A DNA stretch of 64,000 bases, from positions 1,922,001 through 1,986,000 of the forward strand of contig JAOSKN010000003.1 of NCBI GenBank assembly GCA_027493525.1, in the 5' to 3' direction. Both the position numbers and the translations under genes were made by a program. The notes under the pieces were generated by a model, which was not told where the DNA came from, did no database searches, and saw only the letters and a program-made list of their open reading frames with translations. This DNA comes from Planctomycetota bacterium. GTDB taxonomy: Bacteria; Planctomycetota; SZUA-567; H5-PLA8. Each line of letters opens with the position of its first letter. The stretch's first letter is position 1. Positions 304-56,832 of the stretch are shown here, piece by piece.

Positions 304-3300
304 TCAGGGCTGCGCGGGCTGGCCGGCTTCCTGGGGCAGCTTTTTCCAGACCTCCCACCACGTCTGGTTCTGGAGCAGGCCGCTGCCGGTGGGCAGGTCC
401 GCATACCCGGCGCGCGCGGCCTTGGTCTTTTCCTGCCGTTCCGCCTTGACCGCCGCCTCATCGGGGTCAAAGCGGGCGTAGAGCACGCGGAAGTCGTGCG
501 CCGGGATGTAGAGCGGGCCGTAGATCTCCTCCTTGATCACCTGCTTGGGTTCGCCTTTCGTGGCCTTGGTGATCGCGCCGCCGGTTTCGAGATCGAGGAG
601 GCAGGGCGTGTTGCCATAATTGAGCGAGGTGGGCTTGAAACTCAGCCCCGAGGGCGCGCGGTAGGCGGCGCTGACGTCGGCGGCGCTGAGGTTGTTCGCC
701 TGCCCGAAGAGCGCCTTGGAATCGAGGAAATGGAGCCGCCCGCGGATCGGCTCGTCGTTCTCGTTCATGACCACGATCAGGGCCTGGTACCCCTTGCCCT
801 TCCCGTCGGGCCGGAGCGCGCGGCGGTAGACGGTCGTGTAGACCTTGGCGAAGGGATCCTTGGGGTCCACCGCGAAGCCGTCGGTCTCGGCGCCTTCGCC
901 GAAGCGGATCGCGCGGCCGTTGCGCCAATACGGCAGCATCTCGGTGCCGGCCTCGTCGAAGTAGCCGAAATCGTAGAGCGCGCTCAGGACGCGCGCGTAA
1001 TGCTCGTGGCTGTTGACGCGCTCGGAAACGCCGAAATCGTGGAGCAGGGCGCGGCCGAGGTACGCGCGGTCGATGCGCGGGTCGTCGCCGGGGGTGGTGA
1101 TGCCGGTAAGCCAGCCGGAAGTGCGCGAGTTCACCCGCGTGGTGAGGCTCTTGCCGGAATTGCAGACGTAGCGGACCAGGGAGATGGGGTAGCGGTTGAC
1201 GTAATCGATCTCGTACGAGAGCGAGTAGCCGGCGGCGCTTTCCACCATCTCGCTGCACGCGGCATAGGACTCCAGGGAGGTCGCGGAGGTGGCCCAGAGC
1301 GAGTGCAGGTTGGGCACGTTGTTGACGGCGTGGAGCCGGGCGATGCGCTTGAAGAGCTCGCGCAGGTTCAGCGAGCCGAAGTTGGACTGGAACGGGAGTT
1401 CGTTGGGCTTGACGTCCTGAGTCGCGCGAAAGTAGGCCTGCCCGTTGGCGAGACAGTTGGTGCGGACGGGGAAGTGCGTCTCGTCCCACCAGAGCCCCGG
1501 GACGCGGCCGATCCGGATCATGCGCTCGACGTGCCAGCAGTAGAAGTCCTCCCAGCTCTTCGAACCCCACTCGATGCCCACGAGCCCCTTGCCCGGGCGC
1601 GTCCAGGGCTGTTCGTAGCCGCCCAGCGCGTCCATCGGGGTGGCGTCCACCTTGGCGCTGGAGTCGAGGAGCCACTCGCCGGTGTAGGCGCCCTTGGCCA
1701 GCGGGGGCGTGCCGCTGTTCTGCCAGTTCTTGATGAAGTACAGCCGCGGCGCGCCCTTGGGATATTGTTTGGTGAAGTACTGGAAGGTCTCGTCGGAGCC
1801 GTCGATGCCGCAGGGCCCGTCGTTGGGCAGGCACTTCAGGCCGGTGCCTTCGTAATTCTGGGGATGCCAGTCGAGCCACTGGACGCGCCGGTAGCCTTCT
1901 TCCTTGGGCTTGGCCGGGTGGGTCAGGATGCAGAATTCGATTTCACGCTTTCCTTCGATGCGCGCCGCGTGGTTGACGAACTTGACGCGCCAGGTGACCT
2001 CGCCCTGCGCGTTGCGCTCGAGGGTCATCGAGGAACCGGCGCGGTCGAGCGTCCAGCCGCGGTCGCTGTCGCAGAGCCAGGTGAAGCCGCGGTCGCCGCT
2101 GCCGAAGAAGAGGAAGGGGCAGAAGCGGGAGTAGTAGAGTTCCAGCCCCTCCATGTATTCGTTCTTCGCGCTGTCCCAGACGACGCCTTCGTCGCGGGGC
2201 AGGATCAGTTCCAGGCCCGAAGATGGCAGCATCCCGTAGAGTCCACCGACGCGCAGGTCGATGGGTCCGGCCACGTCCATGACCAGCTCCAGGCCTTCGA
2301 CCTCAACCGGCTGCGCCGCGCCGTAGGCGAGCTTGGCGGTGAGCGAGCCGTCGCAGTCGTACTGCGCGACGAGTTCGAGGTCGAGCGGGCCGGCCTTGAG
2401 TTTGGCGGCGTACTCCGCCTCGCTCTTCCACTGCCGGACGAGCTTGGCCGGCTCGACGACCTCGGCCGGGATGCGCTGGCCCTTGACGACGGCCTCAAAG
2501 CGCACCGGCGCGCGGAGTTGGGGCCCGCGGCCGATGGCGGTCAGGAGCGCTTCCGGCGGGGCCTGCTTCGCGCCTCGCAGTTCCAGGGGGAGTTCGCGCG
2601 GATCGGGCCGAGTGACGATCTGCGCGGGCAGCCCGGACGGCGCGACCTCGACCTCGTGCTTGAAGAGCTTGAGCTTCGCGCCTTCGACTTCGATGGGCGT
2701 AAAGGGGGCCCAGACGACGTCGTCGAGGCCGAGCTTGTTGCGTTCCCACTCGAAGGCGCCCTTGTAGAAGGGCTCGGGCGTGCGCTCGCCGACGAGGCGC
2801 TGGTTATCGTCGAGCAGCAACAGGGCGACCTTGTAGGAGCCGACTTTGAGGTCGGGCAGGTCAAGTTCGAAGGTCGCGAAGTCGCCGTTGAATTTCGAAG
2901 TGCTTTCCTTCACCAATTCCTCGTCGTCGCCGGCTTTCATCAGGACCAGTTTCGCCTCGACGGCCTTGCGGGCCTCGTCGCTGGCGCCGTGGATCCCGCG
3001 GTCCACGTAGCCCGCGAGGCGGCCGGTATAGGGGGAATACTGGTAGCGGAAGTCGAAGTCCCGCTTGGGCGGCCGCATCTTCGCCAGGCTGTCGACCTTG
3101 TACTTGCGCCATTCCTGGAGGCGCGGGGTGGGGTCCACGGAATGGAATTTGGCCAACCGGTTCTGAAACAAAACCTTCGCCGGACGGCCCTCGGTGCGCA
3201 CGTCGAACCAGAGATAGTTGTCGTCCGCCGAGATGCCGGGCATTTTCTTGCGCAGATGGAGGGTCTTGGTCTCGCCGGGAACGAGTTCGACCATCCCGCC

Positions 3301-4281
3301 GTTCGTCGCCTCGTCGCTGTAGCTGGAGTAGATCAGGCCCTCGGCGTTCTCGACGAAGAAGCCCAGGCGCACGTTTTCCGACTGCTTGTTGTGGTTCTTC
3401 AGCGTCACCGTCACGTCGATGACGTCTTCCATGATCGGGCCCAGCTCGTTGACCTGGAAGCCCACGGACTGCGAATCGAGGACCAGCTTCGTCTTCGTCG
3501 TGTTCCAGGTGTGCTGGTCGAAGAGGACGACATACTGCCCCGCGCCGCCGATGCCGTTCTTGAACCAGCAACGCCAGGCGGTCCCGTCGGGCGGAGGCAA
3601 TTGAAGCAACTCCTGGCCCTTCTCGTCCTTCTCGGCGTAATCCTTGACCTTGAGGTTCTGGAAGGGGATGCGCATCTCTACGACCCAGTAGTCGTCCGTC
3701 TGCCCCGCGCGCACGGCGGCCTGGGACTGCCAGGCCTTGCCCAGGCCTTCCTTAACCGTCCAGAGCTGGTCGGAGACCGTGCCGATCGGGTTGACGAACC
3801 ACTTGAAGAGCCCCAGGCGGTAGGCCTTCCCGACTTCGTGGTAAGGGCGCAGTTCGAACTCGACGTGGTCGTCCCCCATCAGGCCGTAGAGCGGATGGTT
3901 GTAGACGTCCGGGAAGCGCCCGTTGGCCTTGAGCCAACTGCTCTTGGGATAGACGTTGACGAGATACGCGAGGTACAGGTTCTCGCGGTCGAAGCCGGCG
4001 TAAATCTTGGACTGGATCTGGTGCGGGGCAAGGTGCTCGTAGCGCGGCGGCTTGTTGCCGATGCTGGACGACCAGAAGGCCGAGAGCGCCGCGGCGTCTT
4101 CCCACTCCTTCTCGGTGAACGTCCCGTCGATGGCCGGCAGCGCGCGCATGAGCGGCAGGCGCAGCACCGGCGTGTCGAGGGTCGCGACGGAGCCGTCGGA
4201 CGTCGGGGACTCCAGTGCGGACAGCGGCGCGGCCGCGAGCAGGAGCAGCAGGCCCAGTCGTTGCGCACAGACAGGCTTCAT
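304..4281 (-). CDS. Large secreted DUF6067-like glycoside hydrolase-type protein
   Basis: 1325 aa. The start at 4281 has a good Shine-Dalgarno (GGGAGGT) and a signal peptide (MKPVCAQRLGLLLLLAAAPLSA). Residues about 40-270 look like a CBM9-type beta-sandwich ('LPAIDGTFTEKEWEDAA'). The middle holds several beta-rich segments. The C-terminal half looks like a TIM-barrel glycosidase with 'GLWWDETHFPV' as a likely active-site strand. It shares the signature 'RGFTWLCDSDRGW' with 'RGLCWFAENDRGW' in the protein at 22775-25480, so the two are paralogues. I assign both to the DUF6067-like group from memory; no substrate is known to me. It is the last gene of the leftward operon headed by the GntR/LacI-type regulator, which suggests carbohydrate-controlled expression. 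Confidence 0.7.
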   Translation of the reverse strand: MKPVCAQRLGLLLLLAAAPLSALESPTSDGSVATLDTPVLRLPLMRALPAIDGTFTEKEWEDAAALSAFWSSSIGNKPPRYEHLAPHQIQSKIYAGFDRENLYLAYLVNVYPKSSWLKANGRFPDVYNHPLYGLMGDDHVEFELRPYHEVGKAYRLGLFKWFVNPIGTVSDQLWTVKEGLGKAWQSQAAVRAGQTDDYWVVEMRIPFQNLKVKDYAEKDEKGQELLQLPPPDGTAWRCWFKNGIGGAGQYVVLFDQHTWNTTKTKLVLDSQSVGFQVNELGPIMEDVIDVTVTLKNHNKQSENVRLGFFVENAEGLIYSSYSDEATNGGMVELVPGETKTLHLRKKMPGISADDNYLWFDVRTEGRPAKVLFQNRLAKFHSVDPTPRLQEWRKYKVDSLAKMRPPKRDFDFRYQYSPYTGRLAGYVDRGIHGASDEARKAVEAKLVLMKAGDDEELVKESTSKFNGDFATFELDLPDLKVGSYKVALLLLDDNQRLVGERTPEPFYKGAFEWERNKLGLDDVVWAPFTPIEVEGAKLKLFKHEVEVAPSGLPAQIVTRPDPRELPLELRGAKQAPPEALLTAIGRGPQLRAPVRFEAVVKGQRIPAEVVEPAKLVRQWKSEAEYAAKLKAGPLDLELVAQYDCDGSLTAKLAYGAAQPVEVEGLELVMDVAGPIDLRVGGLYGMLPSSGLELILPRDEGVVWDSAKNEYMEGLELYYSRFCPFLFFGSGDRGFTWLCDSDRGWTLDRAGSSMTLERNAQGEVTWRVKFVNHAARIEGKREIEFCILTHPAKPKEEGYRRVQWLDWHPQNYEGTGLKCLPNDGPCGIDGSDETFQYFTKQYPKGAPRLYFIKNWQNSGTPPLAKGAYTGEWLLDSSAKVDATPMDALGGYEQPWTRPGKGLVGIEWGSKSWEDFYCWHVERMIRIGRVPGLWWDETHFPVRTNCLANGQAYFRATQDVKPNELPFQSNFGSLNLRELFKRIARLHAVNNVPNLHSLWATSATSLESYAACSEMVESAAGYSLSYEIDYVNRYPISLVRYVCNSGKSLTTRVNSRTSGWLTGITTPGDDPRIDRAYLGRALLHDFGVSERVNSHEHYARVLSALYDFGYFDEAGTEMLPYWRNGRAIRFGEGAETDGFAVDPKDPFAKVYTTVYRRALRPDGKGKGYQALIVVMNENDEPIRGRLHFLDSKALFGQANNLSAADVSAAYRAPSGLSFKPTSLNYGNTPCLLDLETGGAITKATKGEPKQVIKEEIYGPLYIPAHDFRVLYARFDPDEAAVKAERQEKTKAARAGYADLPTGSGLLQNQTWWEVWKKLPQEAGQPAQP

Positions 4282-5372: not shown

Positions 5373-6545
5373 TCAGCTACGGGACGAGATCACGGGTTGC
5401 GCCGGCGCCGTTCCCGCGCCGAGAGGCGCGGTGGAGGCGCGCTGGACGAGCACGGGCGGGATGCGCACCACGCGCCCCGCCGGCGGGGCGCCGTTGAGCT
5501 GGCGGACGAGCAGCTCGATCGCCGCCCGCCCGACCACCAGCGGATCCTGCTCCACCATCGTCATCGACTGCCCGATGAACTGGGACGAAAGCGAGGAACC
5601 GCGGCCCACCACGGAGAGTTCGCCCGGTACGGCCACGCCTTCGGCTTCCAGTTCGCGCATGAAATTCATCAGCAGGAAATCGTCCGCGACAAAGAGCCCC
5701 GTGGGGCGCGGTTCGAGCTGCTTCCAGCGCTCGACGGCGCGCCGCGCGTGTTCCGGAGACCAGCCGCCCACCAGAAGCTGTGGGACTGGCACGTTCGGCG
5801 GCGTGCAGTCGAAGACCTCCGCCAGCTCGTGGCCGAGGGACAGCCAGGGGCTCTTGCCCAGGAACGCGACGTGCTTGTGGCCCAGTTCGAGCAGGTGCCG
5901 GAAGCCCATGCGCAGTTCCTCGCCGTGGTCCTCGACGACGCGGTCGAGCGGAATCTGCGGATACCAGCCGGTGAGGTCCACGACGGGGATGCGGAACTGG
6001 AGCGCGCGGCGGTACTCGCCCGGCCGGGCATGCTGGCAGGCGAAGCCCGCGATGCCGTGCCGCTCCAGAAAGTTCTCGGTGACGCCGACGTTCCCCTCGG
6101 GCGCGGTCACGAACTTCATGCTCATGCCGTGCTGGCCCGCCGCGAGAATGAAGCCGTCCAGCAGCGCCGAATAATAAGGATGGAAGTCCGGCGAGATGCG
6201 GCAGTGGAAAAACGCCAGCGTCTGTCCGTCGGGACGGGCGGCGCTCTGCGAGACGGCCGGCGCGGCGCGCCCTTCCACTACGAAGGTCCCGCGCCCGCGC
6301 GTGCGCTCCACCACTCCGGCCTCCGCCAGCGCGCGCAGCGCCCGGCTGACGGTCCCGTAGCTGTAGCCGAACTGGCTCATCAGCTCCTTCTCCGTCGGGA
6401 GCCGGTTCTCTGGCGCGAACGCGCCGCCGTGAATCTTGCGTTCCAGGTAGACTTGGAGGCTCTTCCACTTCGGCACCGCCAGCGCCTTCAGGTCCAGGCC
6501 GAGGTCGGCATCCGCATCGGAAGAAGAAGGAGCCGAGAGTTCCAT
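5373..6545 (-). CDS. GntR-type transcription factor with LacI-like effector-binding domain
   Basis: About 390 aa from the ATG at 6545; an in-frame TTG at 6554 (GAGGT just upstream) is an alternative start. Residues about 25-95 are a GntR winged helix ('LPTEKELMSQFGYSYGTVSR', 'ALAEAGVVERTRGRGTFVV'). The remainder is a periplasmic-binding-protein fold of the LacI/PBP1 type ('TLAFFHCRISPDFHPYYSALL', 'GLFVADDFLLMNFMRELEAE', 'VVGRAAIELLVRQLNG'). This AraR-like architecture is a sugar-responsive repressor in known cases. It heads the leftward operon with the propeller and DUF6067-like genes. The two inverted motifs at 6571-6604 and 6661-6694 lie directly upstream, and copies occur at the second DUF6067-like locus, so it probably controls itself and both loci (inference). 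Confidence 0.85.
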   Translation of the reverse strand: MELSAPSSSDADADLGLDLKALAVPKWKSLQVYLERKIHGGAFAPENRLPTEKELMSQFGYSYGTVSRALRALAEAGVVERTRGRGTFVVEGRAAPAVSQSAARPDGQTLAFFHCRISPDFHPYYSALLDGFILAAGQHGMSMKFVTAPEGNVGVTENFLERHGIAGFACQHARPGEYRRALQFRIPVVDLTGWYPQIPLDRVVEDHGEELRMGFRHLLELGHKHVAFLGKSPWLSLGHELAEVFDCTPPNVPVPQLLVGGWSPEHARRAVERWKQLEPRPTGLFVADDFLLMNFMRELEAEGVAVPGELSVVGRGSSLSSQFIGQSMTMVEQDPLVVGRAAIELLVRQLNGAPPAGRVVRIPPVLVQRASTAPLGAGTAPAQPVISSRS

Positions 6546-6570
6546 GCGCCTCAATTACCTCATTGGGATT

Positions 6571-6604
6571 CCGAAAACCTTATGCAACTGATGTAACTAC
6601 ACCG
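6571..6604 (-). promoter_or_regulatory. Operator candidate, copy A1
   Basis: Read on the minus strand it begins CGGTGTAGTTACATCA and continues with a degenerate second half ending in GGTTTTCGG. It shares GGTGTA-N3-ACATCA with copy B1 at 22614-22648, and with N4 in A2 and B2. It lies just upstream of the GntR-type regulator start and points toward it. Binding by that regulator is inferred from repeat and position only. Confidence 0.6.
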
Positions 6605-6660
6605 ATAAATCAGTGTTTTCGTCCTACAACCCTACTATTTTGCCTTTAAAATCGATATTC

Positions 6661-6694
6661 TGGTGTAATAAACATCATTAAACTGATGCTTTTG
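6661..6694 (+). promoter_or_regulatory. Operator candidate, copy A2
   Basis: Begins TGGTGTAATAAACATCA; the following bases form an inverted repeat CATCA-N6-TGATG. It faces away from copy A1, with 56 bases between the GGTGTA ends, so the pair brackets the middle of the divergent interval between the regulator and the MoxR operon. The same pair and spacing recurs at 22614-22740. Confidence 0.6.
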
Positions 6695-6813
6695 CGCATA
6701 CAGAGGTATTGCTATTAAAACCCTAATTCGATGTAGGTGCGCAATTGTAACTAGAAGGTAGAATGCGGCGGCTAAGACCAGGGTAAACGAACATCGAGGA
6801 GGGCGGGGACGCC

Positions 6814-7830
<1,017 letters not shown>

Positions 7831-21653: not shown

Positions 21654-22538
21654 TCATTGGGGCATGACCCGGACGTCCGAAGTCCACAGGTCCTTCAGGT
21701 ATGCGAGTCCTTCGGCGATGCGCTGGGCCGCGGGCAGTTCGCGGCGCAGGTCTTCTACGGAAAGGTAGCCCGCGAAACCTTCGTCCTTCAGCGCGGTAAG
21801 CAGTTCGGGGTAGTTGGCGATCCCTTCGCTCAGGCCGGCCCACTTCCGATGCCAGCGCCCGTCCACGCCACGTTCCCAGGCCGCGTTCTTGCAGTGCACG
21901 TACGCGAGGTAAGGTCCCAGCAGTTGTACTGAGTTGCGCCAGCCTTCGCCGCCCTCGAAGACCATGTTCCCCGGGTCGAGCAGCACGCCCGCGCGTGACG
22001 GGGGATAGGCGTCCAGCAGACGCAGCGCCGCGCTGGCCGAATTCACCACGTAGCCGTGGTGTAGTTCGAAGACGAAGCGCAGCGCGTGCCGCTCGGCGTG
22101 GCTCATGAGCGCGCTCAGGGATTCGGCCTGCCGCGCCATCCACTCGCGGCTGTGCCGGGCGCCATCGTACTCGGCGTGGACCGGATCGAGCTTCGAATTC
22201 GGCCCGCCCCAGCGCACGTGCGGTTCAAAGAACATTCGCACGCAGCGCGAGCCCAGCGCGTCGGCGGCACGCGCGACCCGTTCAAGCGCATGCGCGTCGG
22301 CGCTCTGCTTGAGCAGCAGGTTTGGTGTCAGCGAGATGACCTCCAGGCCGTGCGCCTGGAATTCGGATCGGAGCCGCGCGCCCGTGGCCAGCACTTCCGT
22401 GAGCCCCGCTTGGTCCAGGCGCGGGTCGGCCACCGGAAGCGTGACCTCCAACCCCGCGCAACCCCACTCGTGCGCGAGCTTCAGCGCCGCCGGTCGATCC
22501 AGCGATTCCAGGGCAAGGAGCTGCGTTCCGAGCTTCAT
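21654..22538 (-). CDS. Sugar phosphate isomerase/epimerase (xylose-isomerase-like TIM barrel)
   Basis: About 294 aa from the ATG at 22538 (MKLGTQLLALESL), which has AAAGGGAAG upstream; an in-frame ATG at 22574 would add 12 atypical residues. The AP-endonuclease-2/xylose-isomerase fold is clear, with metal-binding candidates in 'FVFELHHGYVV', 'AGVLLDPGNMVF', 'LAYVHCKNAAW' and 'GYLSVEDLRREL'. Such enzymes isomerise or epimerise sugars or cyclitols in the cytoplasm. The gene is divergent from the second DUF6067-like gene across the B1/B2 motif pair, which ties it to the GntR-type regulator and suggests it processes the sugar released by those secreted proteins (inference). Confidence 0.85.
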   Translation of the reverse strand: MKLGTQLLALESLDRPAALKLAHEWGCAGLEVTLPVADPRLDQAGLTEVLATGARLRSEFQAHGLEVISLTPNLLLKQSADAHALERVARAADALGSRCVRMFFEPHVRWGGPNSKLDPVHAEYDGARHSREWMARQAESLSALMSHAERHALRFVFELHHGYVVNSASAALRLLDAYPPSRAGVLLDPGNMVFEGGEGWRNSVQLLGPYLAYVHCKNAAWERGVDGRWHRKWAGLSEGIANYPELLTALKDEGFAGYLSVEDLRRELPAAQRIAEGLAYLKDLWTSDVRVMPQ

Positions 22539-22613
22539 GGACTTCCCTTTCTGCCAAGACGGTGTATACCACATTGTGCGTAAAGCGGAGACCCCATGAT
22601 TACCTCAGTAGAT

Positions 22614-22648
22614 TTATAAAACATTATTCTAATGATGTTATTACACCG
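22614..22648 (-). promoter_or_regulatory. Operator candidate, copy B1
   Basis: On the minus strand it begins CGGTGTAATAACATCA and its distal half forms an inverted repeat with 9-base arms and one mismatch (AATGATGTT against AACATTATT on the plus strand). It points toward the isomerase operon. It matches A1 at 6571-6604 in both sequence and in the 15-base spacing of the GGTGTA...ACATCA part. Confidence 0.6.
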
Positions 22649-22705: not shown

Positions 22706-22740
22706 CGGTGTAACTAACATCACTTTAGTGATGTTTATGG
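22706..22740 (+). promoter_or_regulatory. Operator candidate, copy B2
   Basis: Begins CGGTGTAACTAACATCA and overlaps a perfect inverted repeat ACATCAC-TTTA-GTGATGT at 22717-22734. It points toward the DUF6067-like gene at 22775. The GGTGTA ends of B1 and B2 are 57 bases apart, against 56 for A1/A2. Confidence 0.65.
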
Positions 22741-22774: not shown

Positions 22775-25480
22775 ATGTTCCGAACCACCTTCCAACGCTG
22801 GATTCTCCTGGCATGTGGATTCCTGGGATTCCTTGCGGGGAGCGTCTTTGGAGGCGAGACCTTACCTGCGCCTGAATACGTGGCTTCTGTGGGCGAGATC
22901 AAGATCGCCGACGCCTCGCCATCGATGGGGTTGATCGCGAACTTCAATGCGGGATACGTAAAGGGTCTGAATACCGAAGGGCCGGTCAAGGTGTACTTCG
23001 GCTATCGCCTGACGTTGGGCAAGCTGGTGGTGGTCGTGGAGGCGAACGATACGGCCGCGCAGCGGGCGGAGGTCGAATTGAAGGCCGCCGCAGGCGGGAA
23101 ATCGGCGCGCGGCTCGATCCTGGAGTTCACCGGCGGCAAGGGCGGGGTGGTGCTCCACGACCTGGGCCTGCTTCCCGAGGGCGACAGTACGCTGGAGGGG
23201 AAGCTCCAGGACGCCGGCGGCAAGGAACTCGCAAGCTTCAAGAGCGTCTTCCGCCGCGTGCCGCTCCCTTGGCTGGGGAACAAGCTGGGGCTCCCGGAGA
23301 CGCCGCCGCCGCCTTTCGAGCCGGTCGTCGTGAAGGAGTCCAAGGTCTCGGTTGTGGGCCGGGAGGCGACGGTCGCCGGCGACGGGAATTTCGAATCGCT
23401 GGTGATCCTGGGCGAAGAGGTTCTCGCCGCGCCGATCCGCTTCGTGGCGCGCGCGGGCGGAAAGTCCCTTCCTTTGGCCGGCGCGAGCCCCAAGTTCGGG
23501 GCCTGCACGGCGACCGAGGCGCGCTGGGAAGGCGAAGCGCGCGGCGCGGGCGTCGCGGTGCTCTCCAAGGTCGTCTACGAATACGACGGCATGGCGCGCT
23601 ATGACCTGGTGCTGAAGCCGGAAGCCGGCGCGGTGGACCTGGAGGGCCTCACCCTGCAGATCCCGCTCAAGGCGAAGTACGCCCGGCTGCTCAACGCCAT
23701 CCCGCCCGGCGGCGCCTTCCGCACCTGCCTGACCGCCTTCGCGCTCCCCGAGCGCGACGGGGCGCTCTGGGACACGCACACCTGGTTCAAGACGATGGAG
23801 GGCCTCCCCGAGCGGCCCTTCGGCGGCTTCGCCTCCGTGCTCTGGCTCGGCGGCGCGGTGCGCGGACTGTGCTGGTTCGCCGAGAACGACCGCGGCTGGG
23901 CGCCGAGCCCCGAGCGCCCCGCGCTGGCCATCGAGCGCGCCGGCGAGACGGTCACGCTGAACGTGAACCTGATCGCCGCGCCGTTCAAGCTCGCCGCCGC
24001 GCGCGCCATCACCTACGGGCTGATCGCCACGCCGCCCAAGCCCCTGCCCAAGGACCACCGGCTCTGGAACCGCGGCGAATCCGAGAAGGTCGGCGTCGTC
24101 GGCGGGCGGCTGACGAGTTGCGACGCCTTCGCGCCGTGGGAGATCTCCCCCGCCGCGCGCGACGTGCCGCACCCCACGATCAAGGTCCGCGACGGCTACT
24201 TCAGCTACTGGCCGCCGCTGGACAACTGGGAGCACGCGCGCCTGGCTTGCGAGAAGCAGCACAGCGTCCACGCCGGCAAGTATCCCAAAGGCTGCGCGCT
24301 GATGCTCTACCACGACAAGGCCAAGTGCCCCGTCCATCCCGACGTGCTCAGCTATTTCCAATGGATCTGGCGCGTCGGCTCCTATCCGCAGGACCGCGTC
24401 GACCACCTGGTCTGGTACATGGACAGGTGGCTGGCCTCCGGCATGGACGGCATCTACATCGACGACATCTTCCCGCAGCGCGACTGCAACGGCGCGCCGG
24501 TCGGAAGCGCGTACTATTCGCCCGGCGACGGCCGCGACTTCGCCTTCGACTCGGGCCCCGAGGCCGAGAAAGAGATGGAGCGGCTCAAGGCCGAGGGCAA
24601 GGAGGTTCCCAAGGTTTACGGGTTGGAACTCTTCGCCTACCGCGAGTACCTCAAGCGCGTCTACGCGCTCTTCTGCCAGCACGGCAAGCCGCCGATCATC
24701 ACGACCCACATGACCAACACCATGATCTGGCCCCTCCACTCCTTCGCGACCGTGGCCTTCGACTGCGAGGACCAGGGCCGTTTCAGCACCGCCGGGACCA
24801 CCTACATGGACGCCTGGACGCTTGAGCGCTTCGAGATCATGGATAACCCCGAGCGAACGGGGCTGGTCACCGTCCCGATGTTCAAGGGCCAGTACCTTAC
24901 CAAGTACAACGACGCGCAGAAGTTCGCGGCGCTGCGCTCGGCCTGGGCCATGTGGCTGCTCTTCGACCACAGCTTTGCGATCGTCGGGCACGGCGGCATC
25001 CCGGCGAAGAAACTCGCCGACGTCGCCGGGCGCGAATACTACGGGACCGACGTCGAAGTGCTCCTGTTCTGGCGCAACGAGGCGTACCTCACGCTGAAGG
25101 CCGAGGTTCCCGCGCAACTGGCCGAGGAAGACTTGCCCAAGAAATGGAAGGCCAAGTACTGGAGCGACGAGCAGCGGGAAGCGGTCAAGCGCGAGCCGCT
25201 ACGCGCCACGCTCTACAAGAAAAACGGCCGCGCGCTGCTGGTCGTCGCAAACTTCCTCAAGAAGCCGATCAAGGCCGAGGTGAGCGTGGACCTCGAACGC
25301 TTGGGCGTTCCCGCCGCCGCCCGCGCGAGCTTCGCCGTGGAGGACGTGGACGACTGGAAGCCCAAGGACGATCTCCCGATCCCGCCGCCCGACCGCGATC
25401 TTGCCCACAAGGCCAACGTGCTCACCTTCACGGTCGGCGGACAGGATTTCCGCGCCGTGGAACTCAAGTGGAAGCCGTAG
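22775..25480 (+). CDS. Secreted DUF6067-like glycoside hydrolase-type protein
   Basis: 901 aa, AAAGGAG upstream, signal peptide at residues 1-28. The N-terminal half is beta-rich. The C-terminal half reads as a glycosidase TIM barrel with 'SGMDGIYIDDIFPQRDCNG' (likely active-site strand with two aspartates), 'KPPIITTHMTNTMIWPLHSF' and 'FDHSFAIVGHGGIPAKKLAD'. The segment 'RGLCWFAENDRGWAPSPERP' matches the paralogue at 304-4281. It is controlled from the promoter region bearing B1/B2, so it probably belongs to the same regulon as that paralogue. The substrate is not predictable from the sequence; neighbouring sulfatase, fucosidase and lyase genes make a complex sulfated or fucosylated glycan plausible. 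Confidence 0.75.
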   Translation: MFRTTFQRWILLACGFLGFLAGSVFGGETLPAPEYVASVGEIKIADASPSMGLIANFNAGYVKGLNTEGPVKVYFGYRLTLGKLVVVVEANDTAAQRAEVELKAAAGGKSARGSILEFTGGKGGVVLHDLGLLPEGDSTLEGKLQDAGGKELASFKSVFRRVPLPWLGNKLGLPETPPPPFEPVVVKESKVSVVGREATVAGDGNFESLVILGEEVLAAPIRFVARAGGKSLPLAGASPKFGACTATEARWEGEARGAGVAVLSKVVYEYDGMARYDLVLKPEAGAVDLEGLTLQIPLKAKYARLLNAIPPGGAFRTCLTAFALPERDGALWDTHTWFKTMEGLPERPFGGFASVLWLGGAVRGLCWFAENDRGWAPSPERPALAIERAGETVTLNVNLIAAPFKLAAARAITYGLIATPPKPLPKDHRLWNRGESEKVGVVGGRLTSCDAFAPWEISPAARDVPHPTIKVRDGYFSYWPPLDNWEHARLACEKQHSVHAGKYPKGCALMLYHDKAKCPVHPDVLSYFQWIWRVGSYPQDRVDHLVWYMDRWLASGMDGIYIDDIFPQRDCNGAPVGSAYYSPGDGRDFAFDSGPEAEKEMERLKAEGKEVPKVYGLELFAYREYLKRVYALFCQHGKPPIITTHMTNTMIWPLHSFATVAFDCEDQGRFSTAGTTYMDAWTLERFEIMDNPERTGLVTVPMFKGQYLTKYNDAQKFAALRSAWAMWLLFDHSFAIVGHGGIPAKKLADVAGREYYGTDVEVLLFWRNEAYLTLKAEVPAQLAEEDLPKKWKAKYWSDEQREAVKREPLRATLYKKNGRALLVVANFLKKPIKAEVSVDLERLGVPAAARASFAVEDVDDWKPKDDLPIPPPDRDLAHKANVLTFTVGGQDFRAVELKWKP

Positions 25481-49955: not shown

Positions 49956-50660
49956 ATGAACTATCGCATAAGCGTCGCATGTGTCCTGATAACGCTTTTC
50001 GCGCACTCCTCATGGTGCTTGGATGAGCAAGAATCGCGAGCTGTTCATGCAAGTGTTGTAGGGTTGCTGGATAAGCCTGAGCCCGAGCGCATGAAGAGCG
50101 TTGGAGAAATGCCAATCGGACAATTGCCCCAAATTCGAGAGGTGCTCCGTAATGCGGTTCATGGAAAACTGCACATTACTGGAAAGTACTACATCGTACG
50201 CCCTGATATCGGCCTCGACGATCCAATTCAAAGTCTCCAGCTTAGAGCCAACGCGGCCGCAAAAACCTTGCTGCTGATCGGAGGCGAAGACGATCTTTTT
50301 GCCGTACTCTTGGAATTATCCAAGCACTATGCGCCACACTCCGCTCAGGAAGTATTGTCAAAGCCCTCTCCCGCTCAAATCTTTTCAATTCTCGGCCAGC
50401 AAGTGAGACTTTCTTTCCTCCGTTACCTCGTGCGCGAACACGATGTAGAGACGCTGGAATCTTTCATGGAGTATGTACAGAAATGGGGGCAATTGAAAGA
50501 CTGGCATCAAGACCTTCGAATTCTTATTGAAAGCATCGATACCACTCAGCGGAGGCTTAGGATCGTTGAAACACATGCCAGCGGATTACTCAAGAAAGAA
50601 GCGGAGGAGGCCGCAAGAAAAGAACCGCCCAAACGCGACGAGCGGCACGAATTCCCGTGA
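49956..50660 (+). CDS. Small secreted protein of unknown function, low GC
   Basis: 234 aa, start two bases after the preceding stop with GGAAGGG upstream. Signal peptide at about 1-21 (MNYRISVACVLITLFAHSSW). The rest is mainly helical ('LLLIGGEDDLFAVLLELSKH', 'SFLRYLVREHDVETLESFME') and ends in a charged Lys/Glu/Arg tail. I do not recognise a family. GC content is well below the surrounding genome and like the C-terminal third of the preceding gene, so the two were probably acquired together. Its position directly after a variable low-GC C-terminus is where an accessory or immunity partner would lie, but nothing in the sequence proves that role. Confidence 0.65.
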   Translation: MNYRISVACVLITLFAHSSWCLDEQESRAVHASVVGLLDKPEPERMKSVGEMPIGQLPQIREVLRNAVHGKLHITGKYYIVRPDIGLDDPIQSLQLRANAAAKTLLLIGGEDDLFAVLLELSKHYAPHSAQEVLSKPSPAQIFSILGQQVRLSFLRYLVREHDVETLESFMEYVQKWGQLKDWHQDLRILIESIDTTQRRLRIVETHASGLLKKEAEEAARKEPPKRDERHEFP

Positions 50661-50777
50661 CGAGGCGAGCCAACTCTCTTGCCGAGGGCGACATCATGGG
50701 AGATGAGCGCACCGGCGAAGATGAATTGGCAGGTGGTATTCCTCCCAACGCGCTCCTCGCCCCTCGCCCCGGCAGCA

Positions 50778-51445
50778 GTAAAGCGCCCCCCTTTCCGATT
50801 GGACAGGGGCTAAGAGACGGGCAGCTTGGTTGACGGGCCGGTCAGAGGCCTCCGGCACAAGGGGGACACTTTATCGACGGGCACGAACTCGGCGGCGGTC
50901 TCCTTTGGCTACCGTCTCCCGTTGATGGCCATAAGTTCAGGATCGAAGTGGAATGCAAGACGGTCTTCGACGGCCAGGAACTGTCGGTGTCCCTGAACCG
51001 CGACTACGACTTCACCGGCGCCGGCCCGGGTCCGGTGCGCGATCCTGACACCGGCGAGGAAGACTTTTCCAGCCGTGTGCAGCCGAACGTCACGGCGCTG
51101 CCGCGCTCGGACGAAGAGGAGCGGCTGGTCGAGGTGTTCATTTCACCAAGGACGGGCGCGGCCCCGAACGAGTGGCCTTGGGTCGATGGGATCGAGACGG
51201 TGGCCTACGACCCGGCGACGTCGATGGCGACGCTGCGCCTGAAGCCGGAACGCCTCAACACGGACGATCCGGAGTTCCCGTATGTCGAAGACCCCGGCGT
51301 AGCGCCGGGGATGCACGCGGTCAACGGCGAGCCGGACCTGTTCAACGTCGTCAGCGTGCGTCCGAGCACGGTCGTGGCGGGGCAGGTTGTGCGGCTGACG
51401 ATCGGCGGCGCGAACCTTCCGGACGCGCTCGGCGGGGTGCGGACG
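50778..51445 (+). repeat. 668-bp direct repeat, copy 1 (core)
   Basis: Begins GTAAAGCGCCCC and ends ...GTGCGGACG. It matches 54891-55450 plus 56842-56949 at a constant offset of 4113 bp, with only a handful of mismatches, for example AAGGGGGAC against AAGGGCGAC and TTGGCTACC against TTGGCTGCC. It is high-GC and includes about 165 bp upstream of the first ATG as well as coding sequence, so the repeat unit is not just a domain. Confidence 0.95.
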
Positions 51446-51733
51446 GTGGATTACAACAACGACGAGGAGTTGTGGGATTTGCTCCAGACGGCCGCGCCGC
51501 CGAGTTCGTTCGTCTTCACGGCGTCGGACGGGGTTCCGCCGCCGGCGGGAGAGGACACGGGGATCGAAGTCCTTCGCGCGCGGACGCGGAAAGACCCGCG
51601 CTACGTGACGGAAATCGGCGAAGTGGATTTGGAAGTGCGCCTCGGCGCGAACGCGCCGGTGGGGCTGTACGACCTGACGCTGCCGCTGAAGGATGGGGGA
51701 CGGCGCGGTTGGAGGAGGTTATTGAAAGCATAA
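50834..51733 (+). pseudogene. Displaced core of a large secreted protein, 5'-truncated, frame-slipped from its tail
   Basis: An open frame runs from 50834, just after a stop, with the first ATG at 50948; the residues before that ATG ('HELGGGLLWLPSPVDGHKFR') read as genuine protein, so the true 5' end is missing. The product resembles beta-sandwich surface domains, including an IPT-like 'VRPSTVVAGQVVRLTIGGAN'. At the G-run 51695-51699 the frame breaks and it stops at 51733, while the adjacent frame continues as 'GTARLEEVIESINFEYLVPE' into the low-GC tail. A one-base change in the G-run would fuse the two. It could be a silent recombination donor, a decayed gene or a phase-variable gene. Confidence 0.65.
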
Positions 51734-53721
51734 ACTTTGAGTATTTAGTTCCAGAACACGCAGATTTTACAGGACAACTATCAACAACTTTCCTTTCTAT
51801 ATCAAACCCAAGACCAAGAATTATTATTGACCCTATAAGCTTAGATGACGTCCAAGTAGACAATGAGAAGGCATCCATTTCGGTATCGGGTTACGTAGTT
51901 GACAAAATCGCAGATAACGGAGTGGGGCGTTTGGCGTCTTTGGGTGGATCAGATATTGATGCAATTAAGTTTTCGGTAAATGGAAATATGTTTTACACGC
52001 AACCACTAAATCGAGACATTAACTACGAATCTCAGAATTCAAATTACTGGCTACAACATCCGTATCGAGCAAAGTTCGGACCAATATCCATTGAGGTTCC
52101 AATTTCGACAAGTACAGAAACTGTCTTAGATATTACCACCTCCCCTAATGGAATTGGTCTGACTGGTTCGATCGAAATACGATTGGAGATAGGACGATTT
52201 GTTGATCATATTTCTGGCATCGATCAAGCCGGAATTACTGGCCTGCGTCTTGAAGGCGATAATGAATCAACTGAATACTTCCCCTTCACCGTTAGATACA
52301 GAGATCGGGTCGAGCACGAGAACTCCGAAATTGATGTTCTAGGAACAACATTTGAAGTAGGAGTCAAGGAAGACGGCTACTATTACCCTAAGGGGCCTAG
52401 CAAGCAGGTGTACTGCATCGTTAAGTTAAATGGGGCTTTTTATTTGACTTGGGTTGACCGTGATGGAATTGTAAGGACGGCGCTCATATCTAAGAAGTCT
52501 TTCGCTGATGCGGTTACGGTGTTTGAAAAGGTCCATAACCTGAAAGGAAAGCTTGTTGCTTATCAACCTACCGGCTTGCCGATAAAGCTTGTGGATTCCC
52601 TTAGCCCTCCATTTAGAGAATACTTGAATAACATTATTACCTTTAGATCGCATTTGCATGAAATAAATATCATAACTGGTGCAAGGCCAATTATCCCAGC
52701 TGACTTGGGATATGAAATCGACTTCCTGAAAAGAACAAACCAAAGAGAACCAGTCAAAAGCACGATAAAATATCTTGAGCAGGCGAAGTTGCCTGGCTAT
52801 TTTTCCGAAGGTATCAACCTTTATGATTCAATTGTGCAGAGTTTTCAAGATGCACGGGGAATCGCCGAAGTGCTGTGGTTAATGGATCATTGGAAATTGC
52901 TAAAAGAACTTTCTGAATGGGCCAAGGTACCTAAGGAAGCGATTATCTCTGGCTTGTTTTCTGAAACTCAAGACGATAATACCTTTACTGTATGGGCGGA
53001 GAGCGCACTTACCAATAATACATATGTAAGAAAATTGCAACTTCAAATTACTGGGACAGGTCTTTGCAATCTTCATTACACTTTGCCATATGAGACTGTT
53101 CACGGATTCGGTATTTTGGAATTTCTTGAGGAGCCAGCAACGGGCTTGGGCATAGAAGAGGAGCGCGAAAAGGTGTTTACTATATTCTCCGCACTCACGC
53201 GACTAGGCAATACGAATAGGGAACTAGCGCGCATTGACTTTCAGGAGAATATTCAAACAAATGATGTGCGATCAATGATATTATATACAGCTGTGTGGCA
53301 TAGCATTGCTAGGCAATTATATGTCCAGGCACCAGACCGGTTGACATATAATCCATTTGTGGAAAACTCACAACCTAAGTGGACCGCCCAGGATATTAAT
53401 GTATCTGGTGATGCTTCGTATCAAAAAGTAAGCTTGGCCAATATTGTAATGATGGCGATTGAACAGGCGTACCTTGGATTTAAGAGCCCTACAGGAGGGT
53501 TGGCGCCTGTTCCTGTGGGAAAAGTGGACCTAAGAACAGGAAAAGTATACGGCGGTCCACCGCCACCTGCGCTACCAAGTTTCTTGGATTTAAGGAAATT
53601 GAACACAGGACCTAGGAATTTGTATGGTCTTCCATATCAGTTTGCAACGACATATTTCGACGAAGTGCTCGATCGAGTTCGCAACGAAGTAGTTTTAGTG
53701 GAGTTCCTTGCTGGCGAATGA
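51697..53721 (+). CDS. Low-GC C-terminal tail, about 674 residues, unknown function
   Basis: This frame is open upstream only as a high-GC shadow; real protein character begins at 51697, one base out of phase with the core. It contains beta-rich and then helical segments ('ISLDDVQVDNEKASISVSGY', 'YFPFTVRYRDRVEHENSEID', 'IAEVLWLMDHWKLLKELSEW', 'NIVMMAIEQAYLGFKSPTGG') and ends 'RVRNEVVLVEFLAGE'. There is no signal peptide or convincing start codon of its own, so it is probably expressed only when joined to a core. I do not recognise a family or catalytic motif. GC is far below that of the core, which points to separate ancestry. Confidence 0.6.
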   Translation, partial: GTARLEEVIESINFEYLVPEHADFTGQLSTTFLSISNPRPRIIIDPISLDDVQVDNEKASISVSGYVVDKIADNGVGRLASLGGSDIDAIKFSVNGNMFYTQPLNRDINYESQNSNYWLQHPYRAKFGPISIEVPISTSTETVLDITTSPNGIGLTGSIEIRLEIGRFVDHISGIDQAGITGLRLEGDNESTEYFPFTVRYRDRVEHENSEIDVLGTTFEVGVKEDGYYYPKGPSKQVYCIVKLNGAFYLTWVDRDGIVRTALISKKSFADAVTVFEKVHNLKGKLVAYQPTGLPIKLVDSLSPPFREYLNNIITFRSHLHEINIITGARPIIPADLGYEIDFLKRTNQREPVKSTIKYLEQAKLPGYFSEGINLYDSIVQSFQDARGIAEVLWLMDHWKLLKELSEWAKVPKEAIISGLFSETQDDNTFTVWAESALTNNTYVRKLQLQITGTGLCNLHYTLPYETVHGFGILEFLEEPATGLGIEEEREKVFTIFSALTRLGNTNRELARIDFQENIQTNDVRSMILYTAVWHSIARQLYVQAPDRLTYNPFVENSQPKWTAQDINVSGDASYQKVSLANIVMMAIEQAYLGFKSPTGGLAPVPVGKVDLRTGKVYGGPPPPALPSFLDLRKLNTGPRNLYGLPYQFATTYFDEVLDRVRNEVVLVEFLAGE

Positions 53722-53736
53722 AGGTTGGTGTGGTTA

Positions 53737-54894
53737 ATGGTTAAGCGTTTTAGTTTAAGGACACTGCTAATGGCCATGACTGCCACTGGCGGCTTGTTAT
53801 TTGTTGTTTTTTTCATCCCGATTTGGGCATTGAGTGGGCGATTTACTAGTAAGGATGGAGCAGTATTGGGCATTTGGTGTTCGGATAATTGCAATACTTT
53901 TGTGACCGGTTATGCAGACGGTGTTGTTAGGGTTTTTGATTTGGCGTCACCTGAATTGACATGTAAGGAAGAACTGCAAGTAAGTGGCCCAGTGCACCAT
54001 GCCTATCACTCTGAGAAGGGGAATTTAGTTTCTGGCGTAACCGGTTCAGGCGAGGTATTTATTTTCGATTCAGCGTCTTCCAATTTCATTTATAGGCAAC
54101 ATACCTCGAATACCTACCGGGCCTGGGCTGTGAGGTGGAATGGCAAAATTGCTTGTGTGATCAATGCGAGTGACCGTACAAGTCTTCTCCTGAAAAAGGG
54201 GCATTTGTTTGAAGAGGTAGACTTAAAAACCGATGATGTGCTTAGTAGTTTTGCATTTTGGGAAGAAGAGAGTACCCTTATTGTACAGTCGATAATTGGG
54301 AAAACTTATCAGTGCAATTTAGAAAATATAGAGGAAACTAGTTCTATGGTATTAGTTGACGATATTAACCTTTACCCGATGTGCGTTTTGAGAGAATTAG
54401 AAATGCAATTGGAGATGATGAATGGGTCAAAGCTAAGTGGAATAGGGCCGCTATTCAGTAAGGTTGATCCCAGGAGTATTGAAGTTCTGGATCTTCGTGA
54501 AAATCAAGAGATGTATGTGGATACGTTGGAATCTGATGTTCAAGTGATTGGATTTTGCCCCAATCTGCCTGAGATAATTGTTGGGACTATTGATGGATCG
54601 ATAGTTAAATATAGAATGCTTAGGGCTCCATGCCTGTTAGGTAAAATATCACATCCTATGTTTTGGATAGATGCTCTACTTTGGATTTTCGCGTTTGTTA
54701 GTTACCTTTATGATAGAAAAAATGGGCTCTTCTCAAAAGAGTGTAGATGTGTCGGGAGGGAGTGTATGAAATATTGTCAAAAGTTGTGGAGGCTCTTCTC
54801 CAAAGAGTGTGGGTGGGTCGGGCGGGGGTTAGAGTTCCGGGAGCATGCAGGTCAGCACTTTGAGGCGCAGGTATTCTGGAAAGTGCAGGCGTAA
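53737..54894 (+). CDS. Membrane-anchored WD40-like protein following the tail
   Basis: 385 aa from ATG at 53737. The N-terminus 'MVKRFSLRTLLMAMTATGGL' is the FSLRTLL anchor typical of planctomycete membrane proteins. It is followed by propeller-like repeats ('CNTFVTGYADGVVRVFDLAS', 'VSGVTGSGEVFIFDSASSNF', 'EIIVGTIDGSIVKYRML') and a second membrane segment near residues 310-325. The last about 55 codons run through two copies of a hairpin repeat and a 19-base fragment of the nearby IS end, giving repeated 'LFSKEC.CVGRE' residues, so the natural C-terminus is probably earlier. Low GC like the tail before it, 15 bp away. Confidence 0.65.
   Translation: MVKRFSLRTLLMAMTATGGLLFVVFFIPIWALSGRFTSKDGAVLGIWCSDNCNTFVTGYADGVVRVFDLASPELTCKEELQVSGPVHHAYHSEKGNLVSGVTGSGEVFIFDSASSNFIYRQHTSNTYRAWAVRWNGKIACVINASDRTSLLLKKGHLFEEVDLKTDDVLSSFAFWEEESTLIVQSIIGKTYQCNLENIEETSSMVLVDDINLYPMCVLRELEMQLEMMNGSKLSGIGPLFSKVDPRSIEVLDLRENQEMYVDTLESDVQVIGFCPNLPEIIVGTIDGSIVKYRMLRAPCLLGKISHPMFWIDALLWIFAFVSYLYDRKNGLFSKECRCVGRECMKYCQKLWRLFSKECGWVGRGLEFREHAGQHFEAQVFWKVQA
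54724..54760 (+). repeat. Hairpin repeat, copy 1
   Basis: GGGCTCTTCTCAAAAGAGTG followed by a G-rich stretch ending in GTCGGGAGGG. The CTCTT/AAGAG arms form a small stem. Related to the copies at 54791-54828 and 57190-57228. Confidence 0.6.
54772..54790 (+). repeat. 19-base solo fragment of the IS256-type inverted repeat
   Basis: TATTGTCAAAAGTTGTGGA is identical to bases 5-23 of the terminal inverted repeat of the complete element at 55451-56832, but no element follows it. It lies inside the end of the WD40-like gene between two hairpin repeats, consistent with a remnant of an older insertion. Confidence 0.7.
54791..54828 (+). repeat. Hairpin repeat, copy 2
   Basis: GGCTCTTCTCCAAAGAGTGT followed by GGGTGGGTCGGGCGGGG. 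Small CTCTT/AAGAG stem then a G-rich arm. Nearly the same as the inverse of 57190-57228. Confidence 0.65.
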
Positions 54895-55441
54895 AGCGTC
54901 CCCCTTTCCGATTGGACAGGGGCTAAGCGGCTGGCAGCTTGGTTGACGGGCCGGTCAGAGGCCTCCGGCACAAGGGCGACACTTTATCGACGGGCACGAA
55001 CTCGGCGGCGGTCTCCTTTGGCTGCCGTCTCCCGTTGATGGCCATAAGTTCAGGATCGAAGTGGAATGCAAGACGGTCTTCGACGGCCAGGAACTGTCGG
55101 TGTCCCTGAACCGCGACTACGACTTCACCGGCGCCGGCCCAGGCCCCGTTCGCGATCCTGACACCGGCGAGGAAGACTTTTCCAGCCGTGTGCAGCCGAA
55201 CGTCACGGCGCTGCCGCGTTCGGACGAAGAGGAGCGGCTGGTCGAGGTGTTCATTTCACCAAGGGCTGGCGCGGCCCCGAACGAGTGGCCTTGGGTCGAT
55301 GGGATCGAGACGGTGGCCTACGACCCGGCGACGTCGATGGCGACGCTGCGTCTGAAGCCGGAACGCCTCAACACGGACGATCCGGAGTTCCCGTATGTCG
55401 AAGACCCCGGCGTAGCGCCGGGGATGCACGCGGTCAACGGC

Positions 55442-55450
55442 GAGCCGGAC
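55442..55450 (+). repeat. Target-site duplication, left copy
   Basis: GAGCCGGAC directly precedes the left end of the IS element. The uninterrupted repeat copy at 51329-51337 holds this 9-mer once. Confidence 0.95.
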
Positions 55451-56832
55451 GGGGTATTGTCAAAAGTTGTGGATGGCGAGAGGAGAATCATGCGGCGTTT
55501 TCCTTGATGCCGTCCACGAAACGGATGCCTCGAATCACGTCTTCCAGCAGCTTATGGCCGTTTAGTTTCCGCCAGCGCTTCTCGGCAACCTGAGCGAGTT
55601 TGAACACCATCGCCAGCGTGGCTTGGCGCGTGCCGCAGCCTTTGGTCTTGTGCGTCCGCAAGCGCACCGTGGCGAAGGCGGACTCGATCGGGTTCGTCGT
55701 TCTCAGATGCGCCCAATGCTCGGCGGGGAAATCGTAAAACGCCAACAGCGCGTCTTGGTCCTTGAGCAGACACTCGACCGCCTTGGGATGCTTGGCTTGG
55801 TACGTCGCCACGAACGCATCGAACGCTGCCTGCGCATCCTTGCGCGTCTGGGCCATCCAGATCTGATGCAATTTCTCCTTGGCTGAAGGCTGTAATTTCT
55901 TGGGCAGGCCGTTCAGCACATTCATCGTCTTGTGAACCCAGCAACGCTGCACCCGGCACTTGGCAAAGGCTTTCGGAAGCGCCGCCCAGAAGCCCAACGC
56001 ACCGTCGCCGATGGCCAGGTCCGGGCCGTTCTTCAAGCCGCGCGCTTTCAGGTCCGTCAAGACCTCAAGCCAGGACTGTTCGCTCTCCCGCACGCCGTCA
56101 TGCACGGCGACCAGTTCCTTCTTGCCGTCGGCCGTGGCCCCCATGACCACCAGGATGCACGAGCGGTCTTCCTCCAGGCGGACGTTGAAGTAGATGCCGT
56201 CCACCCACAGATACACGTAGCGCTTGCCCGCCAAGGACCGCCGGTTCCAGCTCGCGTACTCGGAGGCCCAGACGTCCTTGATCCGCGTGATCGTATTGGC
56301 CGAAAGCCCCTTGGCTTGCGGCCCCAACAGCGCGCTCAGCGCCTCCGGAAAGTCCTGCGTGGAGATGCCCTTCAAATAGAGCCACGGGATCAGGTCTTCC
56401 ATGCTCTTGGTCCGGCGCAAATAGGGCGGCAGAATCTTGCTCGTAAAGGGCTCTCGCTCGTCCGAGGGGCGCCGGTCTTCCACGCGCGGCTGCGCTACGC
56501 GTACGGCGCCGATGCCCGTCTGGATCGTTCGTTCCGGCAGGTAGCCGTTGCGCCCCACCACGCGATGCCCGCGCTCGTCCCGCGCCCGCTCGAAACGCTG
56601 GAGGTATTCTTCCACCTCCGCGTTCAGCGCCGCGGCTAGCAAGCGCTGCGCGCCTTCGTTCAGGATGTGAGTAAGCACGTCCCGGCTGGACGCTTGCGGA
56701 TCGAGCGAAACCGTCGTACCCTGGCTCATGTGGCGTATCCTCCTGCCCTTGTGGGCGTGGTGGCCTTAGATCTCCACCAAGGATACGCCGCACTTTTCTT
56801 TCTCGCTCATCCACAACTTTTGACAATACCCC
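55451..56832 (-). mobile_element. Complete IS256-family insertion sequence
   Basis: 1382 bp bounded by 25-bp perfect inverted repeats; the left begins GGGGTATTGTCAAAAGTTGT and the right end is its exact complement. It carries one transposase gene and is flanked by 9-bp target duplications (55442-55450 and 56833-56841). Perfect ends and an intact gene indicate a recent, possibly still mobile insertion. Confidence 0.95.
55488..56729 (-). CDS. IS256-family (mutator-type) transposase
   Basis: 413 aa, the normal length for the family. DDE-type residues are recognisable in 'YLWVDGIYFNVRLEED' (first D), 'PDLAIGDGALGFWAALPKAF' (second D) and 'LRTTNPIESAFATVRLRTHK' (E). The segment 'CRVQRCWVHKTMNVLNGLPK' is the conserved C/H-rich block between them. 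It has no frameshift or internal stop. It catalyses cut-out or copy-out transposition of the surrounding element. Confidence 0.97.
   Translation of the reverse strand: MSQGTTVSLDPQASSRDVLTHILNEGAQRLLAAALNAEVEEYLQRFERARDERGHRVVGRNGYLPERTIQTGIGAVRVAQPRVEDRRPSDEREPFTSKILPPYLRRTKSMEDLIPWLYLKGISTQDFPEALSALLGPQAKGLSANTITRIKDVWASEYASWNRRSLAGKRYVYLWVDGIYFNVRLEEDRSCILVVMGATADGKKELVAVHDGVRESEQSWLEVLTDLKARGLKNGPDLAIGDGALGFWAALPKAFAKCRVQRCWVHKTMNVLNGLPKKLQPSAKEKLHQIWMAQTRKDAQAAFDAFVATYQAKHPKAVECLLKDQDALLAFYDFPAEHWAHLRTTNPIESAFATVRLRTHKTKGCGTRQATLAMVFKLAQVAEKRWRKLNGHKLLEDVIRGIRFVDGIKENAA

Follow-up and report, generated by a model that had tools for sequence, protein, structure and literature searches.

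What does the long composite motif in front of a GntR/LacI-type regulator gene represent: one operator of that regulator, or several signals laid over one another? We analysed the stretch of DNA that contains it (64,000 nucleotides, hereafter the window) together with its home genome and the genomes of relatives. The motif is real and specific, but it appears to contain two overlapping kinds of signal rather than a single operator.

Motif copies and their gene neighbourhood

The preliminary description had reported GGTGTA-N3/4-ACATCA in two opposed copies, recurring with nearly identical spacing at 22.6–22.7 kb. A whole-genome pattern search confirmed this arrangement. The exact pattern matched four times in the home genome (7.46 Mb, 6 contigs), where an order-2 Markov expectation gave 0.12 matches (Poisson P ~7e-6). 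All four matches were inside the window, as two facing pairs with about 16 kb between them, and none was found elsewhere in the genome. The first pair (6571–6694), 5′ of the GntR/LacI-type regulator gene, consists of GGTGTAGTTACATCA (6589–6603, minus strand) and GGTGTAATAAACATCA (6662–6677, plus strand). The second pair, 5′ of a GH123_N-like gene at 22.6–22.7 kb, consists of GGTGTAATAACATCA (22633–22647, minus strand) and GGTGTAACTAACATCA (22707–22722, plus strand). The GGTGTA ends face inwards in each pair, and the boxes are separated by 58 and 59 bases, which corrects the 56 bases given earlier. The spacer was N3 in the minus-strand copies and N4 in the plus-strand copies. Because the pattern with 2 mismatches allowed was common across the genome, only the near-exact form of the motif is informative.

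The regulator gene (5373–6554, minus strand) encodes 393 amino acids from a TTG at 6554, with the ATG at 6545 as the likely start. Its assignment as a GntR/LacI-type regulator was borne out by domain matches, and the motif pair is in its promoter region. The N-terminus matched the GntR winged HTH (PF00392, E 7.7e-17) and the AraR DNA-binding domain (4egy, E 3.6e-8). The C-terminus matched the LacI/PBP-type sensor domain Peripla_BP_3 (PF13377, E 1.3e-25) and the C-terminal structures of LacI, PurR, and AraR; PDB 4egy and 3tb6 match the two parts of the protein. On the same strand, the regulator is followed by a beta-propeller (Reg_prop) protein and then by a GH123_N-domain protein of 1325 amino acids (304–4281, minus strand), a presumed target. 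To the right of the first pair, a MoxR-DUF58-BatA gene set, identified by domain matches, starts at 6814 and runs rightward. Domain matches also identified a leftward xylose-isomerase-like TIM-barrel gene on the left of the second pair (21654–22574) and a second presumed target, a GH123_N-domain protein of 901 amino acids, on its right (22775–25480, plus strand). Both motif pairs therefore precede units encoding GH123_N proteins. The regulon of the GntR/LacI-type regulator very likely includes the GH123_N gene at 22.7 kb. Contigs of other family members likewise have GH123_N-type genes close to their GntR-type matches (G002 C305, G006 C94, and G000 C1).

Pattern matching placed a GGTGTA box in front of each of the four flanking genes or gene sets, and comparison across genomes suggests that each box belongs to a promoter. 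The boxes are at 6598–6603 (minus strand, leftward to the regulator), 6662–6667 (plus strand, rightward to the MoxR-DUF58-BatA set), 22642–22647 (minus strand, leftward to the TIM-barrel gene), and 22707–22712 (plus strand, rightward to the GH123_N protein gene). A fifth intergenic GGTGTA, within the partly self-complementary sequence GGTGTATACC (22561–22570), is close to the start of the TIM-barrel gene.

The GGTGTA box across the regulator class

In six genomes from two planctomycete families, GGTGTA was present upstream of 60 of the 91 sampled GntR/LacI-type regulators, compared with about 9 expected. The individual values were 10/16, 11/20, 8/13 (G002), 11/14 (G006), 5/11 (G004), and 15/17 (G011), with 1.2–1.8 expected in each; G002, G006, and G004 belong to the same family as the home genome and G011 to another. 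GGTGTA was also the top enriched hexamer in the upstream cores of the 31 other GntR/PBP paralogues of the genus (20 cores, 1.8 expected). Firmicutes relatives, used as controls, had it in 8 of 79 upstream regions. In the home genome, upstream gaps of genes in general showed no enrichment (8/129 against 5.1 expected, two of the eight being the window's own); these gaps were ORF-based and were taken from a crude ORF caller. They replaced AT-rich islands as the intergenic background since such islands were rare (19 in 464 kb). Within the last 200 nt before start codons, 49 boxes pointed toward the gene and 2 away from it (n = 51; P ~1e-12). A role as a ribosome-binding site was rejected, since several genes have a separate SD sequence after the box and the distance from box to start codon varies. 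A universal inverted half-site was weakened as an explanation by analysis of the sequence after the box, where ACAYC-like enrichment was mild.

In a second subclass of GntR regulators (L205, L212, L219, and L223, with L126 recognized by eye), 10-bp palindromes of the form AC......GT occur in tandem at a spacing of 21–22 bp and end exactly 3 nt before GGTGTA. Their letters differ from locus to locus: ACTAGCTAGT, ACATGCATGT, ACAAGC(A/T)TGT, and ACATATATGT. In this subclass the box appears to be constant and the operator private to the locus. GGTGTA is not specific to the window regulator, and the palindrome alone looks regulator-specific.

In the relative G011, 8 of 15 regulators had a GACA separated from the box by exactly 13 nt, and GACA-N13-GGTGTA matched 27 sites genome-wide, whereas the reversed control gave 2. 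No fewer than 18 of the 27 sites are directly 5′ of GntR-type regulators; others precede a phosphoesterase, a beta-helix protein, and further genes, among them those for a hydrolase with a GH123 catalytic domain and for an RpiR/SIS regulator (L281 and L276). The hexamer after GGTG at the 27 sites reads TAT..T (T in 17/27 and 16/27). The box would thus correspond to the end of a 17-bp spacer and the start of the −10 element, a −35/−10 spacing inside the 16–18 bp expected of a housekeeping-type promoter. The ordinary G011 promoter TTGACA-N17-TANNNT was found 65 times against 4 in the control, with GGTG in only 4 of the 65.

In the window's genus, no convincing −35 element precedes the window's own boxes, consensus sigma-70 scans at the window sites gave no usable promoter, and the region upstream of the box showed only an A/T tendency at about −24, −36, and −45 relative to the box. 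Because no −35 is conserved there, we can only infer promoter activity in this genus. The box is also non-canonical, with TG at −14/−13 rather than −15/−14, and the home genus shows no excess of T at position 6 of the −10. The most plausible reading of GGTGTA is as the −10 region (GGTG + TA) in a class of promoters that these regulators share with some of their targets. Our literature search found neither a GGTGTA mark nor an operator/promoter rule for these regulators, which does not prove that none has been described.

The main rival, which we consider unlikely, takes the whole composite as the operator of one regulator, with GGTGT-N4/5-ACATC as an AraR-like GT-N4-AC site and TGATGT as an additional half-site. 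Its geometry fits the AraR consensus (PMC4218819), the 4-nt GT-AC distance is as in HutC sites (PMC4494728), and extra half-sites near GntR palindromes have been described (PMC4494728). The confinement of the exact motif to the two window loci also agrees with it, as does the weak ACAYC-like sequence after the box, which is mildly above chance and so at spacer 5 as well. Given this geometry and enrichment, GGTGTA may also serve as half of an operator. However, GGTGTA is common to regulators with unrelated palindromes, is strictly gene-oriented, and in G011 keeps a fixed distance to a −35. The earlier proposal of the composite as one operator is thus supported only in part: the palindrome is retained as a candidate operator, and GGTGTA behaves as a promoter box.

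Slightly less likely again, a dedicated alternative sigma factor would recognise GGTGTA as its −10, or a global regulator common to the carbohydrate regulons would bind there, with the palindromes as the specific operators. The strictness of GGTG would fit such a factor, as would the confinement of the box to GntR/PBP-type promoters and some targets rather than general home-genome promoters, but the GACA −35 and TATnnT −10 of G011 fit the ordinary promoters there, at the same 17-bp spacing.

Palindromes as candidate operators

The second half of the motif is an 18-bp palindrome, ACATCA-N6-TGATGT. At the regulator locus, the left copy ACCTTATGCAACTGATGT (6577–6594) is weak (4/6 outer pairs) and the right copy ACATCATTAAACTGATGC (6672–6689) has 5/6 outer pairs; at the 22.6–22.7 kb locus, ACATTATTCTAATGATGT (22621–22638) has 5/6 outer pairs and ACATCACTTTAGTGATGT (22717–22734) is the sole perfect copy. 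All four are candidate operators. The palindrome starts are 95 bp apart at the first locus and 96 bp apart at the second.

Close homologues of the regulator were found in G001 (50% identity) and once more in the home genome (48%), both divergent from a heparinase II/III-like gene; no orthologues beyond the three were found at E ≤ 1e-35 among 392 genomes of the phylum. The promoters of the homologues (48–50% identical) contain 18-bp ACCTAT...TAGGT palindromes of the same length as those of the window, namely ACCTATCAAGTAGTAGGT with its partner ACCACTTTAAAACAAGGT 95 bp away (L024), and ACCTCTTAATTAGTAGGT and ACCTATGGACTAGAAGGT, 93 bp apart (L006). In one of these promoters, GGTGTA is again found four bases before the palindrome (GGTGTAAATAACCTTG...). 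Paired 18-bp palindromes are present in the regulator's own and presumed target promoters, and the same layout occurs beside homologues, with spacings of 95, 96, 95, and 93 bp over the four promoters of related regulators. The recognition helix is altered in the relatives with other palindromes (SYTTVNRAL against SYGTVSRAL). This suggests that the palindrome letters vary with the recognition helix of the regulator while the box and the layout stay constant, a covariation backed by few cases because there are only three close homologues. ACATCA-N6-TGATGT is probably the private operator of the neighbouring regulator, placed at divergent promoters.

The four-copy layout also bears on two further readings. 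Ends of a mobile element, for example a twice-inserted MITE-like inverted repeat, would explain why each locus has inverted arms of about 30 bp that enclose some 58 bp, but the enclosed sequences bear no relation to each other, the genome has only two such places, and each is a divergent promoter region next to genes of related types, which makes this reading very improbable. Chance similarity of AT-rich promoter DNA, already judged very unlikely in the preliminary description, could appeal to the frequent 2-mismatch matches but is refuted by the number of exact copies and their two identically arranged pairs, and is the least probable of all.

An 18-mer pair search gave no universal 95-bp palindrome pairs before all other paralogues, and repeat searches returned isolated cases only. 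Separately, an inverted pair, TTGAAGCGAGTCAT and TTGAATCGAGTCAT, 69 bp apart, was observed 5′ of another GntR/PBP regulator (L130, G000:C1:2114350-2114980). Between the first motif pair and the MoxR gene, CCCTAATTCGATGTAGGT (6721–6738) differs at one position from ACCTA-N8-TAGGT, the palindrome that accompanies the 48% paralogue, and cross-regulation through this sequence is possible.

Proposed mechanism and comparison with known systems

We propose, with a probability of roughly two in three, that each motif copy contains two modules, a shared promoter box and the palindromic operator of the regulator, with repression at divergent promoters. The sequences, their rarity, conservation, orientation, and spacing were observed directly; from them we infer binding, repression, looping, a sugar inducer, and sigma recognition as follows. 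GGTG would form the end of the −35/−10 spacer and TA the first bases of the −10 hexamer. In this planctomycete lineage, promoters of this class would drive the genes of GntR/LacI-type sugar regulators and some of their targets. The 18-bp palindrome, 3 or 4 bases downstream of the box, would cover the expected transcription start. Each site would then hold a back-to-back pair of divergent promoters, with operators 95–96 bp (about nine helical turns) apart. When no inducing sugar is present, a regulator dimer would, in the manner of AraR, occupy both operators and block both start sites, possibly closing a small DNA loop between them, and the regulator's own gene and the GH123-like genes would be repressed. 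Binding of the sugar to the PBP domain would release the regulator. The constant 93–96 bp spacing, near nine turns, is consistent with looping, although the four promoters belong to related regulators and are not independent evidence.

Bacillus subtilis AraR combines a GntR HTH with a GalR/LacI sensor and has paired in-phase ara boxes and a small DNA loop (PMC4218819). The window regulator has the same domain architecture, paired palindromic operator candidates in its promoter, and a carbohydrate-gene context. In contrast to AraR, its candidate operator is an 18-bp AC...GT palindrome of other letters and length, not ATWTGTACGTACAWAT, and its paired sites, 95–96 bp apart, are predicted to lie over two divergent starts. 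Since ACATCA-N6-TGATGT, compared by eye, does not match the ara-box consensus At(T/A)tGTaCGTAcaa(A/T)T (PMC4218819), we class the regulator as AraR-type in architecture only, and not as AraR.

In regards to GntR-type regulators of another subfamily, Escherichia coli NanR has a (GGTATA)3 operator (PMC8012715). The GGTATA word resembles GGTGTA and is likewise near promoters of a GntR regulon; unlike these direct repeats, GGTGTA is single in each promoter, oriented, and common to many regulators. The window regulator also has a LacI-like sensor domain and two candidate operators about nine helical turns apart, as in the lac system, whereas its DNA-binding domain is GntR and not that of the LacI family. 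LacI-family repressors use auxiliary operators, with lac O1 and O3 92 bp apart. In extended −10 promoters, G/T bases immediately before the −10 are conserved and the −35 is weak or missing. The window boxes likewise have G/T bases before the proposed −10 and no convincing −35, but GGTG directly abuts TA, and only a single class of regulators and some of its targets have the mark.

The larger sampled planctomycete genomes contain about 35–50 GntR/PBP-type sugar-regulator matches each. A shared oriented box combined with a regulator-specific palindrome would make it simple to find, from sequence only, where dozens of regulators have their promoters and operators and which genes form their regulons. 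Of the two signals, the GGTGTA mark common to the regulator class is the more interesting, and it raises the question of why regulator genes have a common promoter signature that other genes lack. We suggest only tentatively that promoters with GGTGTA form a class reserved for the sugar-sensing GntR/LacI-type regulators of this planctomycete lineage and their glycoside-hydrolase targets, and that a specialised sigma factor or a common co-regulator reads it; if so, tens of private sugar switches would have one common global input.

Elsewhere in the window, an AT-rich stretch at about 50000–56700 (with an island of about 3.1 kb that includes 52407), near a Mutator-family transposase (55488–56729), looks like acquired DNA.
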